IMG/VR virus record: IMGVR_UViG_3300022602_003929
Span: 1 to 33,810 of that record
Reading direction: 5' to 3' (one strand)
Source of the DNA: a virus
Length of the DNA stretch: 33,810 bases
This document shows, piece after piece, positions 1 to 33,810 of this stretch. Numbering within the stretch: the first letter of the stretch is position 1; every line of letters starts with the position of its first letter. The notes under the pieces are model-generated. The model saw nothing but the letters and a program-made list of their open reading frames with translations. It searched no databases and had not been told where the DNA came from. Both the position numbers and the translations under genes were made by a program.

Positions 1-1546
1 TTAAAGCTATTAATGAACCAATTGTAAATGATGTACCACTGCTTGTTAATGCAGCTGTTGGTACTGGATATACTGCAACACTATTATTTGTAGTAGCTGT
101 AGCATTATTAGAGCTTGTTACTGTTAATGTATATAGTGTATTGGTTGTAGGGGTTACTGTATAACTGTTACCAGATACAACAGCGCCTACACCATTATCA
201 ATAGCACCTGTACCATTACTAAAGTTAGGAGTTAATGTAATAGTACCACCAGCTGTAATAATAGTTGGTGAAGCATTTAAGCCACTTGCAACAGGGGCTG
301 GCGGTGGTGGTGGGGCTGATATTGTTACTGTTGTGCTTGAAGTTGTTGTAACACCACCAGATGTAACATTAACATTATATACAGTGGTTGTAGTTGGCGT
401 AAAAGAATATGTGTGACCAGATACTGCAGAAGCTACTAATACCGTGCCTGAACCATCTGTAATAGTACCTGTACCAGAATAGAACACTGGAGTAATAGAA
501 ACTGCACCAGAAGTAGGATCAACTGTGCCTGCACTAATTGTTGGAGGTATGGTAGCCAATACGCTTGATACACTCATATTAGATAAGCTAATGTATAATG
601 TAAACTGAGCTGTTTGACCAGCTGTTAAAGAACCAACATCCCAAGTTTGACCAATACCTGTATCACTTGTAAATGTATTACCATCTACATATGTGTTAGA
701 ATCATATAGAGCTGAATTATATAATTGATAACCACCACCAAAGCCTATATTAACAAATCCTTTAGCTCTTGGATCTGGAGCAATTAAGAAAATGTTAGCT
801 GATGTTGTACCACCTGTTGAAGCAGCTTGTACTACTGAATAACCATCCTGTGCTGATGTATTAAGAATGTTATTAATTGTTGTATAACTACCACCAATAT
901 CTACTGTATTATCTGGATCAACGTTCCAAGTATAACGAACATGATTTAATGTAGTACTACCTACATTCTTTAATGTTACTAATATAGTAAAGAACTTATC
1001 TGATACACCTAAATGAATATCTTGTGTAACCTGTAAATTGTTATTAAATGTAGCTACTGCCTCTGCACTTGTATCTGTTGTGCTACTACCCGATGTTGTA
1101 TCTGTTACACCACCAGCTACTAAGCCTGTACCGGCCGTATAACCACTACTGGTATTAATAGCATTTGCTGCATAATTTGTAGAACCAATTTGATAACCAC
1201 AACCCCAGGATACGTAAGGTGAACCTGGCATAAAGTAGTCAAAGTCTCCTGTATTAGAACCAACAACTAATCCTCCTGCATTAGTTACGTTAGTGTCCAT
1301 ACCAATGATATTTCTGGATACTGTACCAGAGAATCCAAATGTAGATGGAGCTGCTGTATTATGTGAACCAAATGTTCCAATAGGGCTAATGCCAAGTTCA
1401 ATGTATTGGCCACCAATTAAAACTTCAGATGCTGCTGCGCCATTAACGCTATTGCTCTGAGTTACATGGTGTATACCCTGATTTGTTGCATATACTGATG
1501 TAATTGCTAGTAACATCAATGTTATAAGTTTTAATGTATTCTTCAT
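1..1546 (-). CDS. Secreted surface protein with Ig-like repeats (3' end beyond window)
   Basis: The frame is open from the ATG at 1546 to the window edge, so the C-terminus is missing. The first 20 residues form a clear signal peptide: Lys-containing start, hydrophobic core LKLITLMLLAI, and a signal peptidase I site after SVYA. A Gly/Ser/Thr/Asn-rich globular region of about 300 residues follows (nt 1486 to about 560). After it come at least two Ig-like repeats, at about nt 548-310 and 290-70, separated by a poly-Pro linker (PPPPPAP). Each repeat carries a pattern like GTGxIxxGxGxVxSG then VTPTTxTxYTLTVT, common in secreted surface proteins of bacteria. It sits just downstream of a minus-strand terminator, so it is probably transcribed on its own. 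A secreted adhesin-like protein is unusual for a phage; acquisition from a host, or a virion fibre role, are both possible. The exact function is not recognised. Confidence 0.8.
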   Translation of the reverse strand, partial: MKNTLKLITLMLLAITSVYATNQGIHHVTQSNSVNGAAASEVLIGGQYIELGISPIGTFGSHNTAAPSTFGFSGTVSRNIIGMDTNVTNAGGLVVGSNTGDFDYFMPGSPYVSWGCGYQIGSTNYAANAINTSSGYTAGTGLVAGGVTDTTSGSSTTDTSAEAVATFNNNLQVTQDIHLGVSDKFFTILVTLKNVGSTTLNHVRYTWNVDPDNTVDIGGSYTTINNILNTSAQDGYSVVQAASTGGTTSANIFLIAPDPRAKGFVNIGFGGGYQLYNSALYDSNTYVDGNTFTSDTGIGQTWDVGSLTAGQTAQFTLYISLSNMSVSSVLATIPPTISAGTVDPTSGAVSITPVFYSGTGTITDGSGTVLVASAVSGHTYSFTPTTTTVYNVNVTSGGVTTTSSTTVTISAPPPPPAPVASGLNASPTIITAGGTITLTPNFSNGTGAIDNGVGAVVSGNSYTVTPTTNTLYTLTVTSSNNATATTNNSVAVYPVPTAALTSSGTSFTIGSLIAL

Positions 1547-1988: not shown

Positions 1989-2092
1989 ACGGCTATAGGT
2001 TGCAAGCTCGAGTGCCAATTCGTTGATACCGTGAGCAGAAAGGTGAAAAAAGCTCACATCCTTGATCCCTATAATGTCACCTTAACAGCCGT
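1989..2092 (-). ncRNA. Candidate pseudoknotted small RNA downstream of tmRNA
   Basis: The minus strand folds into a compact nested structure. Helix A is ACGGCT/AGCCGT (2087-2092 with 1989-1994). Helix B is TATAGG/CCTATA (2068-2073 with 1994-1999), stacked on A except for one shared base. Helix C is GTGAGC/GCTCAC (2052-2057 with 2031-2036). A 7-bp pseudoknot helix D, AAGGTGA/TCACCTT, pairs 2077-2083 (between A and B) with 2040-2046 (loop of C). A bulged hairpin, UUG-G-CA with UG-CAA, fits between C and B. The 3' side runs into GCCGTTTTAATTT, which could end transcription. It begins only four bases (TTTT) after the tmRNA CCA, so the two may be co-transcribed. No known RNA family is recognised; a cis-acting 3' element of the tmRNA transcript is the main alternative. 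Confidence 0.5.
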
Positions 2093-2096
2093 AAAA

Positions 2097-2477
2097 TGGT
2101 GGACCTGCCGGGATTTGAACCCGGGTGTTCTATACCGTTCTTATTAGTTTCTACAAGCTTATCATTACTAATAAGATATATACCCGTAATGCTGATATAT
2201 AAATTGTTTGGTAGTGTTCCTGCTATTCTACTACCATGGAATAGTCAGTCTCGCTGAATGACGGTTATAATATATAGCGAGAATCTATACTACAACCGAT
2301 CGAGCTTAAGCAGCTACGAGTGCGAAGCTTTCGCTTGTATTGAATGAATCCGTTACAGAAGCGACTGCGTTCTTGAGGCTTTGAATAATGCCGTTTGTTT
2401 TGTAGTAATTTATAAGGATTTACTAATCCTGCTTGCTTCTAATACATCTGTTATAGAGTCGAATCCAGAACAGGCCC
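2097..2477 (-). ncRNA. ssrA: tmRNA (transfer-messenger RNA), phage-encoded
   Basis: 381 nt. The 5' end GGGCCTG (2477-2471) pairs perfectly, with one G-U, to CAGGTCC just before the encoded ACCA (2097-2100), forming a 7-bp acceptor stem. The 5' end continues with the tmRNA signature TTCTGGATTCGAC. The T arm CCGGG-TTCAAAT-CCCGG abuts the acceptor directly. PK1 is visible at 2403-2430: stem AGGATT/AATCCT, whose loop TAGTAA pairs with TTACTA. Ten nucleotides later comes the resume codon GGC (2392-2390), the same PK1-to-resume spacing as in E. coli tmRNA. The RNA would tag stalled nascent proteins and free ribosomes during infection. It is divergent from the gene at 2521, sharing a 43-base promoter region. 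Confidence 0.93.
2306..2392 (-). other. tmRNA tag-peptide reading frame (28 codons plus TAA)
   Basis: From the inferred resume codon GGC the frame encodes GIIQSLKNAVASV then TDSFNTSESFALVAA and TAA. The hydrophobic end (FALVAA) matches the usual (Y/F)AL(A/V)AA degron recognised by ClpXP-type proteases. At 28 residues it is long compared with the usual 8-15. A Gly resume codon resembles Bacteroidota tags such as GENNYALAA. The exact resume point is inferred from PK1 spacing and could be shifted by a codon or more; the stop and C-terminal residues are certain. Confidence 0.75.
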
Positions 2478-19560: not shown

Positions 19561-20369
19561 TTACCATTAACATATAATTTAAATTGTTTAATATTATTTT
19601 CTATAATATTAAATTGAACATTATCAACCTTGGTTTCTAATAGATCAACCAATTTAGTAGATTCTTTATTCCATGTTCCTACTTGTTCATTATATTTAAT
19701 TTTCTTAAGACCATGAACAATAGGAGAAGATGTATCTAAAGTATCAATCCAATTAAATTCTGATCCTTGATAAAAACTAAATTCTCTTGGATGAGAGCTT
19801 CCTAATAGATGATGAGGTAAATTTTTATTAATAACACCATCATTTAATAATTTGCTAAGGACCAATACTCTACCCATAGCCATAGATACCCATTTATTAG
19901 GATGAGGAAAAGCTTTTGTATAAGCATCTCCTATAAATGCAAAAGCTATTTTAGAGCAAAAACCTGAATCATTTAAGGTTTTATAACATTCAACTATATC
20001 TTCATAGGAAGAACCTTGAACTACTCCAATAGCTTTGGTTTCTTTGGTGATATCTTTACTATAATTTTTTATAAAATTATTAAATAGTTCAATAGTTTTA
20101 TTCTTATCACCCAAAGCATCAGGAATAATGTATTCTGTTGGATTTAATTTATTAATCCATTTGACATATTCTGTTGGGTTAAATGCTTCACCTAATTCAA
20201 ATAAAGAATTATCTAATAAGACATGTCTCTTAGTCTTTACGCTATTTTCGTAAAATTTATAATAATCTGGATATTTTTCAAAAAGATGCACCAAAGCATA
20301 ATCATAATCATTCCAAATAATAGACATTGGAAGAAGACTTAAAGGGCATTCATGGGATATCTTAATCAT
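19557..20369 (-). CDS. TGT/DpdA-like 7-deazaguanine transglycosylase
   Basis: 270 aa. The motifs line up with tRNA-guanine transglycosylases and the DNA-acting DpdA branch. HVLLDNSLFELG (49-60) is the DSGGF-like strand, YIIPDALGDK (80-89) and IGVVQGSSYEDIV (114-126) match the family G(I/V)VQG motif, and HHLLGSSHP (186-194) is followed by WIDTLDTSSPIVHG (207-220), at the position of the catalytic Asp and xPTR-like motif. It is much shorter than tRNA TGT (about 375 aa) and lacks its C-terminal CxCxxC zinc site, which favours a phage DpdA-type enzyme swapping guanine for a 7-deazaguanine in DNA. It overlaps the DNA polymerase stop as ATGA. Confidence 0.72.
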   Translation of the reverse strand: MIKISHECPLSLLPMSIIWNDYDYALVHLFEKYPDYYKFYENSVKTKRHVLLDNSLFELGEAFNPTEYVKWINKLNPTEYIIPDALGDKNKTIELFNNFIKNYSKDITKETKAIGVVQGSSYEDIVECYKTLNDSGFCSKIAFAFIGDAYTKAFPHPNKWVSMAMGRVLVLSKLLNDGVINKNLPHHLLGSSHPREFSFYQGSEFNWIDTLDTSSPIVHGLKKIKYNEQVGTWNKESTKLVDLLETKVDNVQFNIIENNIKQFKLYVNGK

Positions 20370-23098
20370 GAGAATAATTCAAAAATATTAGTTGTTACTT
20401 CATTATTAATGTCTGGTAGCTCCCATGTCAACGCTTCATATACAGATTTTACAGGGGGTTTAATAATACCATCAAACATTTCTACATAATCTACTTTAAA
20501 TTCTTCTTCTAATTCAACCGGAAAAGTTCCAGTATAGCATAAAGTATCAACCTTAAATTTATTAGGTAAAATATAAATCTTTTTGACTTTACTGCCAGAA
20601 CCTATCATTTCATATTTTCCGTCTAGATTATAATGACGTAATAATTCATTATACCATAAGGCCCCTTTGACATGATTAGCGGTTCCTTTACCAATAGCAA
20701 AACCATCTGATTTAGACTCTCCCTTTTCCAGGTCACTCAATCCACCACGAAGAGCTACATCATCTCTTGGCAAATTCTTAAAGGATTCATATATGCTCCT
20801 ATAAAGGCTATTAGCTTTAACTTGATCATGTTCTAAAAGCGTATTTTCAATAACCTTCTTGATTAATTCTTTAGCTTTCTTAGGTGTAGCTGAGGCTGCT
20901 ATTTGAACCCCTACATATTTAAATTTATTAGTCTCTACCCCCTCATTATCTAAAATATGTAATATATATCTTTTCTTTTGTAGATATACCCCGACATCAC
21001 AAATAGCTTCTCTCTTAAAGAAATAACGAGGATCTACAGAATTTAAATTATCTCCAGCCCATTCTTTAATCTTATTATTTAAATAAACTCCCAAATCATC
21101 ATCAATTAATTCTAAACCTTTCTTAGTAACCTTATTATTATCAAATATATCAAGCTTTGCTATATCTAAGATAGGTTGAATGGTAACATGACAGCTATCT
21201 GTATCTGAATAAAGAGTTAATGATTTGTCCTCATAGCCATATTTTTCTTTGGCATATTGATCAATAATAACACTAGCTTGTTTTACCACCGCTTGACCTG
21301 TAAGAGTAATACTACCTGCATGATCACTATCACAAATAGGACTAAATTTATTAGCAAATACTCCATATATGGAATTAAGTAAGAGCTTAATCACATTTTG
21401 TAATGCATCATATCTTTCCATCTCAGAATTAGTGCTAATATATTCTGAATCTTCTTTGGTTATCTTAGATAACTTTTTCTTTAATGTATTTGATAATTTC
21501 TTGGCAGATACACGCTCATTATAAAGACTATCAATAAGGGTTGGTACTACTCCTTTGGTCTTTTGAGTATATAATACATTTGCTTTAGATATAGCTATTT
21601 TCTCATTCTGGACAAACTGTATGAATTTGTCTGTTGGAAGCGTGTATTCCTTATTAGATGCAAGCAAAATAGTAACAGATTCAGGTGTCTTAGATATAAT
21701 CTTACCTACTTTAGTCTCAGGTGAGATATTAAGAGTAATAATGGTGTTAGGATATAGAGAATTAGCATCATAGCTAACCACAGCTGTTTTACGGCCTTTA
21801 TCCGGTTCTTTAACAAACCCACCTTCAATTTCATCTCTAGTAGGGCCACCCACAAAGGTAGGAATAATCATACCTTGTTTATAAGCAGCTAAAGCAACCG
21901 CCCCTGTAACAATAACAACCTTGCCTTGAGCTCTATCAAAATCTGTTAAACCTTTATAGGCTAACATGCGCAATATCTTAAAATGTTGCTTCTTTTGATC
22001 TATTCTAACCAAAAGCTCTACGTCTTGAATGTTATAATCTACAAAGTTCTCCCAATCTGTTTCTGCCAGTTGAGCTAGATTAGAAGCATTAATAGCCAAT
22101 TTACCTTCTCCTAATTCATGTTGAGCTACAAAATTCAAAGAATAAGACTCAAGGGGTTGATGTGGAAAGGTTTTATATAATTCTAGATAATCTACGCAAG
22201 AAATACCATGGATATTCCATTTATCCATTTCTTGGCCTTTAATAAAGATACCTTTACGACACCAAATACTATTTACTGGCGATAATTTCTTGGCATGCTC
22301 TTCACTTAAGACTTTAGTAATGCGGTTAATTAAATAAGGAAAGTCAAAGCCATTAGCATTCCAACCTGAAAGAATATCTGGATAAAAATCATCTGTCCAG
22401 AATTTTAAAAAGTTAAGGAATAAATCAGATTCTGATTTACAATGAAAATAGATAGCATTTTCTTTTTTAGGTGTATAAGGCTTTATACCCCAAGTATAGA
22501 ATTTGCTTGTTAAGCTATCATATATTGTTAATAAATTAATAGGATGCTTAACCTCATCAGTCTCTGGAAATTCTGTCTTAGTATAGATTGAAATATAATA
22601 AGGCGTCCAGATCTGCTCTTGATCATTTAAAACTTCATAGCTTTCTATATCTTTCTTAGCTCGAAGTTCACCAAGAGACATTTTTTCTTCTGATTTAGAT
22701 CCTTTTAATCTTACCTTTACAATCTTATCTGCATGATAGATATGGGTATCAACTTCTATATCTAAAAAGCATACTTTAAGAGGAAATCTTGTAAATTCTG
22801 GCTTATCATATTCATCTTTAAAGGTATCTATTAAAAATTGTTGTTCTACTTGAACATTATGATAGATTCTCTTAATTGCTCCATCTTGAGCTGCCTTATT
22901 ACGCTCAAAAGCGCTTTTAAAAGTCTTTTTCTTTAATTTGGTGTTAAAGATTGATAATCCATCTACTTGATCTGAATTAGTCTCTATATAGAAATAAGGA
23001 AAGAATGGCTCTTTCTTTACAATTCTATTTCCATTCTCATCCCAGGTAAAAAGATGACAACATTGCTCACGGGCACTATAATAGATATTTCTATACAC
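20366..23098 (-). CDS. Family B DNA polymerase (T4 gp43-like)
   Basis: 910 aa (T4 gp43 is 898). Exonuclease motifs: FLDIEVD (Asp113, Glu115), NANGFDFPYLI (248-258) and YNIQDVELL (355-363). Polymerase motifs: YDANSLYPN (443-451), KLLLNSIYG (571-579) and LYSDTDSCH (629-637). It is therefore a complete proofreading replicase. The C-terminal TNIFELFS resembles the clamp-binding tail of gp43. The start codon is GTG, the only one fitting the conserved N-terminus. It is followed by a DpdA-like gene in ATGA overlap. Confidence 0.96.
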   Translation of the reverse strand: MYRNIYYSAREQCCHLFTWDENGNRIVKKEPFFPYFYIETNSDQVDGLSIFNTKLKKKTFKSAFERNKAAQDGAIKRIYHNVQVEQQFLIDTFKDEYDKPEFTRFPLKVCFLDIEVDTHIYHADKIVKVRLKGSKSEEKMSLGELRAKKDIESYEVLNDQEQIWTPYYISIYTKTEFPETDEVKHPINLLTIYDSLTSKFYTWGIKPYTPKKENAIYFHCKSESDLFLNFLKFWTDDFYPDILSGWNANGFDFPYLINRITKVLSEEHAKKLSPVNSIWCRKGIFIKGQEMDKWNIHGISCVDYLELYKTFPHQPLESYSLNFVAQHELGEGKLAINASNLAQLAETDWENFVDYNIQDVELLVRIDQKKQHFKILRMLAYKGLTDFDRAQGKVVIVTGAVALAAYKQGMIIPTFVGGPTRDEIEGGFVKEPDKGRKTAVVSYDANSLYPNTIITLNISPETKVGKIISKTPESVTILLASNKEYTLPTDKFIQFVQNEKIAISKANVLYTQKTKGVVPTLIDSLYNERVSAKKLSNTLKKKLSKITKEDSEYISTNSEMERYDALQNVIKLLLNSIYGVFANKFSPICDSDHAGSITLTGQAVVKQASVIIDQYAKEKYGYEDKSLTLYSDTDSCHVTIQPILDIAKLDIFDNNKVTKKGLELIDDDLGVYLNNKIKEWAGDNLNSVDPRYFFKREAICDVGVYLQKKRYILHILDNEGVETNKFKYVGVQIAASATPKKAKELIKKVIENTLLEHDQVKANSLYRSIYESFKNLPRDDVALRGGLSDLEKGESKSDGFAIGKGTANHVKGALWYNELLRHYNLDGKYEMIGSGSKVKKIYILPNKFKVDTLCYTGTFPVELEEEFKVDYVEMFDGIIKPPVKSVYEALTWELPDINNEVTTNIFELFS

Positions 23099-32008: not shown

Positions 32009-32541
32009 TATTGTTCTGTTTCTTTAGAATCCATATTTGGACCTAGAATACTATACATTTCTTCTTGATAAGCTGCAAGTGTATCTCTCATGCGCTTTTC
32101 TTTTTTAATGCGACTTCTCCAGCAATTAAAAGAAATAGAATTAAAATATGAAAATGGGTTATAACCTAAATTAAAGTTATATTTTTTCTTTTTAATCGCA
32201 TTAAACATATTAATTAGACAGTCTCCAATAGCTTCTTCTCTAAAGGTATAATTAATGAAATTAGGAGCATGGGCAAGACCATAAGCAATATTTTTGATCA
32301 TTAATGCTAATTTGTCTGTAATAATGTCAGTCTCATAATATTTTTTAAGTTCATCTGTAAATTCTTGAGGATTTACATAATAAACCTTTTTTGGAGAATT
32401 TTTGCTTTTAGCATCTAAAACCACCACAGGAACATCTGGAATTATTACATCAACAACAACCTCTTCAACTTTGGGTTTCTTTGATTGTTTTGTCTTGGAT
32501 GGGGATTTGTTCTTTGACGTAAATGTCTTTTCTTTTTTCAT
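32008..32541 (-). CDS. Late-transcription sigma factor (T4 gp55-like)
   Basis: 177 aa (T4 gp55 is 185). A basic Lys/Ser/Pro-rich first 50 residues precede the conserved sigma-2-like core: ALMIKNIAYGLAHAPNFINY, TFREEAIGDCLINMFNAIKK, NFNLGYNPFSYFNSISFNCW, then RSRIKKEKRMRD. This matches gp55 (Y-x-F-N-P-xx-Y-x-x-xx-x-F then R-IKKE). It would redirect host RNA polymerase to short late promoters with the gp45 clamp. Its start lies 77 bases inside uvsW. There is no alternative Met nearby. No clear TATAAATA late promoter was found in the window. Confidence 0.82.
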   Translation of the reverse strand: MKKEKTFTSKNKSPSKTKQSKKPKVEEVVVDVIIPDVPVVVLDAKSKNSPKKVYYVNPQEFTDELKKYYETDIITDKLALMIKNIAYGLAHAPNFINYTFREEAIGDCLINMFNAIKKKKYNFNLGYNPFSYFNSISFNCWRSRIKKEKRMRDTLAAYQEEMYSILGPNMDSKETEQ

Positions 32542-33810
32542 AATGTTTAAAGGCGTATACTAATTCATCAACTAAATCTATAATGGTAAGAATGTCTTTA
32601 TTCTCATGGGTTCTTAAACCTCTACCAATAGATTGCAGGGTCTTAATCTTTGATTTACCACCCGCTGCAAATATAATGTAATGAATGTTTTTAATGGAAA
32701 TTCCTGTGGAGAAGATTTTACTTATGGCTATACAAACTATATTATCATCTTTTTCCATAAGGGTTTGAATTTTCTTACGATCTTCAACCTCCATACTACC
32801 TTGAATAAAAAATACTTGTTTGCCTTCAAGGCTATCTAATGCCTCTTTCATTTTTAAACCATGATCTATATAATCTACCAATATAAGACAATTGTTATTA
32901 AGATTTTTAACCACTCTTTGAATAACTTTATATCTAAAATCTTTATTATGAATATATTCTAATTCTAGACGATACATATCACTAGAGGACACAGATGTAT
33001 AATCTGGCTTAAAATCATATTCAATATGCAAAGCAAGCACCTGAGCATTGGCTATATATTTATCACCCACATCTTGTCTTAATTCTGTGGTGGTTTTTTT
33101 GAATATTACTGGACCTATAAAATTATTAATATTCCATTTATCAATATTGTTTTCTGGTAAAGTGCCTGTAAAACCTATTCTTCTTAAAGTTGGTATTTTA
33201 TCAATAAGCTTGCATACTTTGTTACCTCTACGCAATTTATGGCAATTACTTACAAGTATACCGTTAGCATAATAGTTGTTGTTATGCTCTACTTCTATAT
33301 TGAATACGTCTTCATTTTGACGAGGTATTTTTTTTATGTTTAGAATTTTCATAAAAAACGAAGGTTTAATGCAAATTATTTCATCATTAATAGATAATGC
33401 ATCTGCTCTAATCATACCTTTCTTGGTGTAAATCTTGTGATTAGGTGTAACCTGTATAGTGTTGCCGTCGTCTGTTGTAATTTCTAAAAAATGATCATAA
33501 GCATTGCTTTTGTACAAATTACGCCAAACGTTTAGTACTTTTTGAAATTCATTACAACCGGTCTCAATATTATATGACATTACTAAGTCGTTTATTTTTA
33601 TATCTTGTATATACTTGTAGCCAGAAGGTGTAATTAAAGTAGTATTTTTTCTTAAACATTCATCTACAACCAATAAACCCACTTTACTAAACCAACTAAT
33701 ATCTGAATTTTTACTTTGTAAAATACCCATATTAGCAACAATAACTCTAGCATTAGGATCTAATTCTGAATCTCCAGTCCATTTGCTCACTATAGACATC
33801 GGAAAGTTAT
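32465..33810 (-). CDS. uvsW: UvsW-like DNA/RNA helicase with mini-intein (5' end beyond window)
   Basis: The frame stays open to the window edge (Asn-Phe-Pro precede the first visible Met at 33799), so the N-terminus and Walker A lie outside. The visible part has ARVIVANMGILQSK, LLVVDE-[intein]-CHKLRRG (the DECH box), IGFTGTLPE (motif III), CLILVDYIDHGL (IV), AISKIFSTGISIKN (V) and TLQSIGRGLRTHENK (VI), in the order of T4 UvsW. UvsW remodels branched DNA and unwinds R-loops, shifting replication from origins to recombination. It is expected to need intein removal for activity, since the Walker B motif is interrupted. Confidence 0.92.
   Translation of the reverse strand, partial: NFPMSIVSKWTGDSELDPNARVIVANMGILQSKNSDISWFSKVGLLVVDECLRKNTTLITPSGYKYIQDIKINDLVMSYNIETGCNEFQKVLNVWRNLYKSNAYDHFLEITTDDGNTIQVTPNHKIYTKKGMIRADALSINDEIICIKPSFFMKILNIKKIPRQNEDVFNIEVEHNNNYYANGILVSNCHKLRRGNKVCKLIDKIPTLRRIGFTGTLPENNIDKWNINNFIGPVIFKKTTTELRQDVGDKYIANAQVLALHIEYDFKPDYTSVSSSDMYRLELEYIHNKDFRYKVIQRVVKNLNNNCLILVDYIDHGLKMKEALDSLEGKQVFFIQGSMEVEDRKKIQTLMEKDDNIVCIAISKIFSTGISIKNIHYIIFAAGGKSKIKTLQSIGRGLRTHENKDILTIIDLVDELVYAFKHYEKRKDIYVKEQIPIQDKTIKETQS
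33245..33658 (-). other. Mini-intein in the UvsW DECH box (138 aa)
   Basis: Starts with Cys (CLRKNTTLITPSGYKYIQDI, splicing block A), has block B GNTIQVTPNHKIYTKKG with the TxxH motif, and ends with block F DVFNIEVEHNNNYYANGIL then VSN, followed by Cys+1 of the host motif. Splicing would join VVDE to CH. The usual penultimate His is Ser here; terminal Asn and both Cys nucleophiles are present. No homing endonuclease domain fits between blocks B and F. Positions are exact: Cys1 codon 33658-33656, Asn138 codon 33247-33245. Confidence 0.93.

Follow-up and report, generated by a model that had tools for sequence, protein, structure and literature searches.

A predicted one-piece phage tmRNA with a conserved 28-residue tag and an adjoining Atu_At1-family RNA

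Phage-encoded tmRNAs are already known (PMC4131195; PMC9004378), as an earlier note on the DNA described here had remarked. Mycobacteriophages Bxz1, Cali and Wildcat and Bacillus phage G carry a tmRNA on the virus genome (PMC4131195), and the T4-like aquatic phage Melnitz and the pelagiphages encode a two-piece, permuted form (PMC9004378). The bacterial one-piece tmRNA (RF00023) consists of a tRNA-like domain with a G3:U70 pair, four pseudoknots (PK1-PK4) and a single tag frame ending in -AA. Mesoplasma and Mycoplasma have tags of about 27 residues, and these Mollicutes use Lon instead of ClpXP.

The window, the whole stretch of DNA analysed, is a 33.8-kb IMG/VR virus contig (33,810 nucleotides). 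Its tmRNA shares all the listed parts with the bacterial one-piece molecules, but its tag has 28 residues and starts with Gly, whereas 14 bacterial control tmRNAs read by the same script have tags of 9-14 residues. The tag had been described beforehand as unusually long, which holds against these bacteria but not among viruses, where a set of long-tag tmRNAs exists. In contrast to the Melnitz and pelagiphage molecules, the window tmRNA is in one piece. It resembles those of Bxz1, Cali, Wildcat and phage G in lying on a virus genome, but neither its DNA (blastn) nor its tag peptide has a match in a collection of 50,697 phage records. With the Mollicutes it shares a long tag and a degron-like end, although the sequences are unrelated. 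What is new is that several lineages of uncultured viruses have long tags that are conserved, together with an apparent exchange of tags between scaffolds, and the coupling of the window tmRNA to a phage-wide structured RNA.

The tmRNA gene and its contig

A cmscan search matched RF00023 over its full model length to exactly 2477-2097 on the minus strand, which carries the tmRNA parts described below; the score is 88.2 bits, where 47 is the cut-off, and E=3.8e-33. Besides scoring above the curated cut-off, the match contains the tRNA-like domain, PK1 close to the resume codon, a stop-ended tag and three further pseudoknots. The 5′ acceptor strand GGGCCUG (2471-2477) pairs at 7/7 positions with CAGGUCC (2107-2101), including the G3:U70 alanine identity pair, and is invariant among 16 aligned relatives. 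The 3′ strand with discriminator A and encoded CCA (2097-2107) is supported by the covariance-model match and by the relatives' alignment, and the T arm CCGGG-UUCAAAU-CCCGG (2108-2124) covaries in the relatives. PK1 (2403-2430; AGGAU/AUCCU and UAGUAA/UUACUA) has seven pairs with both sides changed, PK2 (2249-2298) and PK3 (2209-2244) are paired and partly covarying, and PK4 (2163-2200) has eight pairs with both sides changed. Across the 16 relatives the helices are 90-100% paired, with changes on both sides of pairs in the T arm, the long P2 helix, PK1, PK2a, PK3a and PK4. The earlier note had read perfect acceptor pairing, a 10-nt spacing between PK1 and the resume codon, a T arm and an encoded CCA from the letters, and each of these is borne out; it had also proposed Infernal and ARAGORN as checks, and only the first gave a hit. 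ARAGORN called no tmRNA in the window, but it also failed on every window-type relative and is therefore uninformative as a test of the call. On comparative sequence grounds the locus is a complete tmRNA: its tRNA-like domain bears the alanine identity pair, all four pseudoknots are there, and selection acts on the 28-codon tag frame.

A permuted two-piece tmRNA (RF04321) was considered and rejected, as the 5′ acceptor precedes the tag, the CCA comes last and the model gives only a 16.9-bit fragment against a cut-off of 47. Phage contigs with such permuted tmRNAs, shown for the upstream half of L408, have the window's acceptor GGGCCTG/CAGGTCC and short ANDEKYALAA-type tags that look betaproteobacterial; L410, L411, L180, L218 and others resemble L408 at the 5′ half. 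Two relatives of the window tmRNA, L095 and L133, have the T loop GGCAGTA instead of TTCRANT, and their T arm is perhaps decaying or modified. The non-standard loop of L095 suggests that decay occurs within this tmRNA family.

The window encodes T4-like replication genes assigned through PHROGs (UvsX, a replicative helicase, SbcC/SbcD-type gp46/gp47, a single-strand binding protein and an exonuclease), together with a family B DNA polymerase. T4-type portal genes are present on contigs with window-type, L065-type, L066-type, L193-type and acidic tags, and the same portal search found none on basic-tag contigs. Judged by its genes, the contig is a T4-like phage. The replication genes in the window and the portal genes on contigs with the same tmRNA likewise uphold the earlier claim that the tmRNA is phage-encoded. 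The DNA polymerase gene (20366-23098, minus strand) exceeds its closest relatives (L004-L006, 60% identical) by about 56 codons, which suggests an insertion. The Walker B motif of a UvsW-like helicase (32465-33799, minus strand) appears, by eye, to contain a mini-intein (DE-C...HNNNYYANGILVSN-CHK). The product of the ORF at 2-1546 (minus strand), which runs off the contig end, is large and, again by eye, looks secreted: it has a signal peptide, and Ig-like segments recur along it.

The tag reading frame

The tag GIIQSLKNAVASVTDSFNTSESFALVAA is encoded by 28 codons at 2392-2309 and followed by UAA at 2308-2306, so that the reading frame spans 2306-2392. Its resume codon GGC (2392-2390) is the one that the earlier note had placed at 2392, and the frame proposed there stands, being kept in 13 distinct variants. 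In E. coli, the main determinant of the frame is A86, four bases before the resume codon (PMC2481249). The corresponding A at -4 before GGC is invariant in the 13 variants (13/13), which come from a scan for the window-type 5′ end that returned 60 viral contig stretches with 13 distinct window-type tags. All are 27-28 codons long, start GII[QN]SLKNAVA[SA]V and end in FALVAA, FALAAA, FALAA, FAFAAA or FVLAAA; their sole length change is one whole codon. Set against 14 amino-acid changes, the GGC frame has 13 extra synonymous codons, and no variant has a stop in it. The synonymous bias is found only there: the other two frames have synonymous/amino-acid counts of 5/22 and 3/23, and stops occur in 3 and 4 of their columns, respectively. 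From this comparison the tag is judged to be real.

The first 13 residues are the best conserved part of the tag, variation being placed in its middle. Synonymous changes are few in these 13 codons, so part of the conservation may reflect constraint at the RNA level or recent ancestry. The N-terminal half, GIIQSLKNAVASV, would be amphipathic as a helix (its moment of 0.47 is matched by 0.4% of shuffled sequences, for a segment picked by eye), and amphipathic N-terminal segments occur in several viral tag families. More distant cousins (L193, L263) have a 20-codon tag, GINKALSNFFGFAEEMPLAA. The best reading is of a two-part tag, amphipathic in its N-terminal segment and degron-like at its end. 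That related viruses keep the long tag suggests it may have a job of its own.

We favour, with a probability of roughly 0.7, a functional phage tmRNA whose long tag is handled through host proteolysis. The host AlaRS would charge the phage tmRNA, which host SmpB and EF-Tu would then carry to ribosomes that have stalled on broken mRNAs in the infected cell. Translation would then resume at GGC and append Ala-GIIQSLKNAVASVTDSFNTSESFALVAA, whose FALVAA end would act as a degron for host AAA+ proteases. More speculatively, the amphipathic segment could be an added element that aids handling by a protease, an adaptor or the membrane. No smpB was detected in 30 long-tag or related virus records, some larger than 100 kb but possibly incomplete, and the same search was positive in 10 of the 14 control genomes, all bacteria; the phage thus probably uses the host protein.

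Long tags in other viruses and competing explanations

Among T4-like relatives collected through the DNA polymerase, the tmRNA tag is 35 residues long in L064, 34 in L065 and 33 in L066, the last determined by hand and ending in ELV rather than -AA. The L064 and L065 tags share AE[ND]NT...LAEAEY...ADE[VI]LA...LLAA, and of the 37 differences between them 19 fall on the third base of a codon. A motif scan of viral contigs gave, among the matches listed, further one-piece families, including basic (GAKNRVRALGLKNRLAAKRFGFKSRKLALAA) and acidic (GEGYDSIEELLEAAREEYDNLVQFEQAEELEMVA, up to 41 residues) types. Several other uncultured-virus families have tags of 20-41 residues that mostly end in AA. In total, about 35 of 57 distinct viral one-piece tmRNAs carry tags of at least 20 residues, in a sample biased by the two motifs used. 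Searches of sequenced phages with tmRNA DNA found none of the other long-tag families; at the peptide level, the basic and L064/L065-type tags had no credible match in the 50,697 phage records, and the matches to the acidic tag were no better than chance (E of about 5 or more). ARAGORN, a standard finder, missed 27 of the 57 and misplaced the tag in others, so long-tag viral tmRNAs are likely under-reported.

Tag type and scaffold type do not always coincide. The scaffolds of the L161 and L199 tmRNAs are much alike, yet their tags are unrelated, one being acidic and the other basic, whereas L198 and L238 have an acidic tag homologous to that of L161 on a diverged scaffold. Such a pattern is what an exchange of peptide modules would look like.

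One possibility, which we hold to be real though clearly the less probable, is that the N-terminal extension is passive: the tmRNA would be functional, its degron an ordinary one ending in AA, and its length free to drift. This qualifies the functional-tmRNA interpretation from within rather than competing with it. The spread of tag lengths across viral families (20-41 residues) and the existence of Mollicute tags of about 27 residues count in its favour. E. coli tmRNA is also tolerant of altered tag templates (PMC2481249). Free drift sits poorly with a tag that is best conserved over its first 13 residues, with homologous acidic tags on two scaffolds and with amphipathic N-terminal segments in several families.

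A bolder proposal, which we consider unlikely, is that long viral tags are exchangeable effector peptides and not just degrons, redirecting tagged proteins or the rescue pathway and being replaced on a constant scaffold. Amphipathic, acidic or basic modules would steer nascent chains to the membrane, to an adaptor or to a protease of the phage's choice, while an arms race or a change of host would drive tag replacement. Should uncultured phages indeed have long, conserved and exchangeable tags, tmRNA would be a viral route for appending the virus's own peptide to stalled proteins of the infected cell, and phage tmRNA would not be merely a copy of a host function.

It is improbable that the molecule acts as a decoy, blocking host trans-translation by occupying SmpB or ribosomes while adding no tag itself. 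Precedent comes from phage DS6A, which carries little beyond the tRNA-like domain; a similar molecule is a strong inhibitor of tmRNA, perhaps because it titrates SmpB (PMC4131195), and the lack of smpB in the 30 related records would agree with it. However, PK1-PK4, the resume context and the tag frame are all intact and conserved in the window type.

We give very little weight to resumption one base later, at GCA, which would produce the 12-residue tag ALFKASRTQSLL. GCA is a common resume codon, here too an A lies at -4, and a stop ends the frame; across the variants, however, this frame yields an altered product (ALSIASRTQSLL), stop columns and mostly non-synonymous change, and lacks an AA-type end, whereas the GGC frame keeps its residues. 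Least probable of all is that the gene is bacterial contamination or a host ssrA copy captured at an attachment site. Although integration into host ssrA genes is known (discussed in PMC9004378), the gene content is T4-like and the same gene lies beside phage tRNAs in many viral contigs.

The Atu_At1-family RNA downstream of the tmRNA

The functional phage tmRNA favoured above has a structured neighbour that the first reading of the DNA overlooked. A 108-nt match to RF02496 (Atu_At1; 1989-2096, minus strand) begins at the base after the tmRNA CCA, scores 64.6 bits against a cut-off of 60 and has the conserved helices. Rfam holds this family as a Rhizobiales sRNA; the phage RNA shares the helices of that sRNA but directly follows a tmRNA and has a supported pseudoknot outside the Rfam structure line. 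The pseudoknot pairs AAGGUGA (2083-2077) with UCACCUU (2046-2040) and links the first hairpin loop to a U-rich loop. In a filtered set of 115 sequences, 37 viral and 78 bacterial, five helices and the pseudoknot are supported by GC/CG/AT/TA exchanges.

A scan with a short pattern taken from this RNA hit 64 viral stretches and, among the genome matches listed, occurrences in many Rhizobiales and other Alphaproteobacteria; the bacterial members among the matches listed are almost all alphaproteobacterial. Copies are found in L067, L095, L097, L133, L134 and L140, and stand-alone ones among L096-L158 and L277-L395. Atu_At1 is accordingly a widespread phage RNA, present in dozens of phage contigs, with a well-supported pseudoknot. 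A 140-kb relative (G019) has the same order of tmRNA and Atu_At1 RNA followed by tRNA-Tyr and tRNA-Met, whereas in other relatives a tRNA follows the tmRNA instead; the two RNAs are thus often, but not always, paired. They are probably co-transcribed and belong to an array of stable phage RNAs, which in relatives includes tRNAs.

A cis-regulatory role was considered and rejected, since phages and Alphaproteobacteria do not have the same genes next to the RNA. Many phage copies lie, by eye, just behind promoter-like TATAAATA or TATAAT-like sequences, and together these observations make Atu_At1 look like a free-standing RNA. An HDV-like ribozyme trimming the CCA end was set aside because most copies stand alone and the outer helix closes the whole RNA. 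In the literature consulted, a search by name and accession returned no role for the Agrobacterium relative. For the phage's host, the alphaproteobacterial cue from Atu_At1 and the betaproteobacterial-looking tags of same-acceptor phage tmRNAs point to different groups.

Further downstream on the minus strand, a 61-aa ORF (1628-1813) possibly belongs to the same transcript. A strong intrinsic terminator (1606-1579), with a 12-bp stem followed by a T run, is the probable transcript end and may close a unit of tmRNA, Atu_At1 RNA and 61-aa ORF. In L095, two tryptophan-halogenase-like proteins (d1 and d2), recognised by eye, are encoded downstream of the tmRNA and Atu_At1 RNA.
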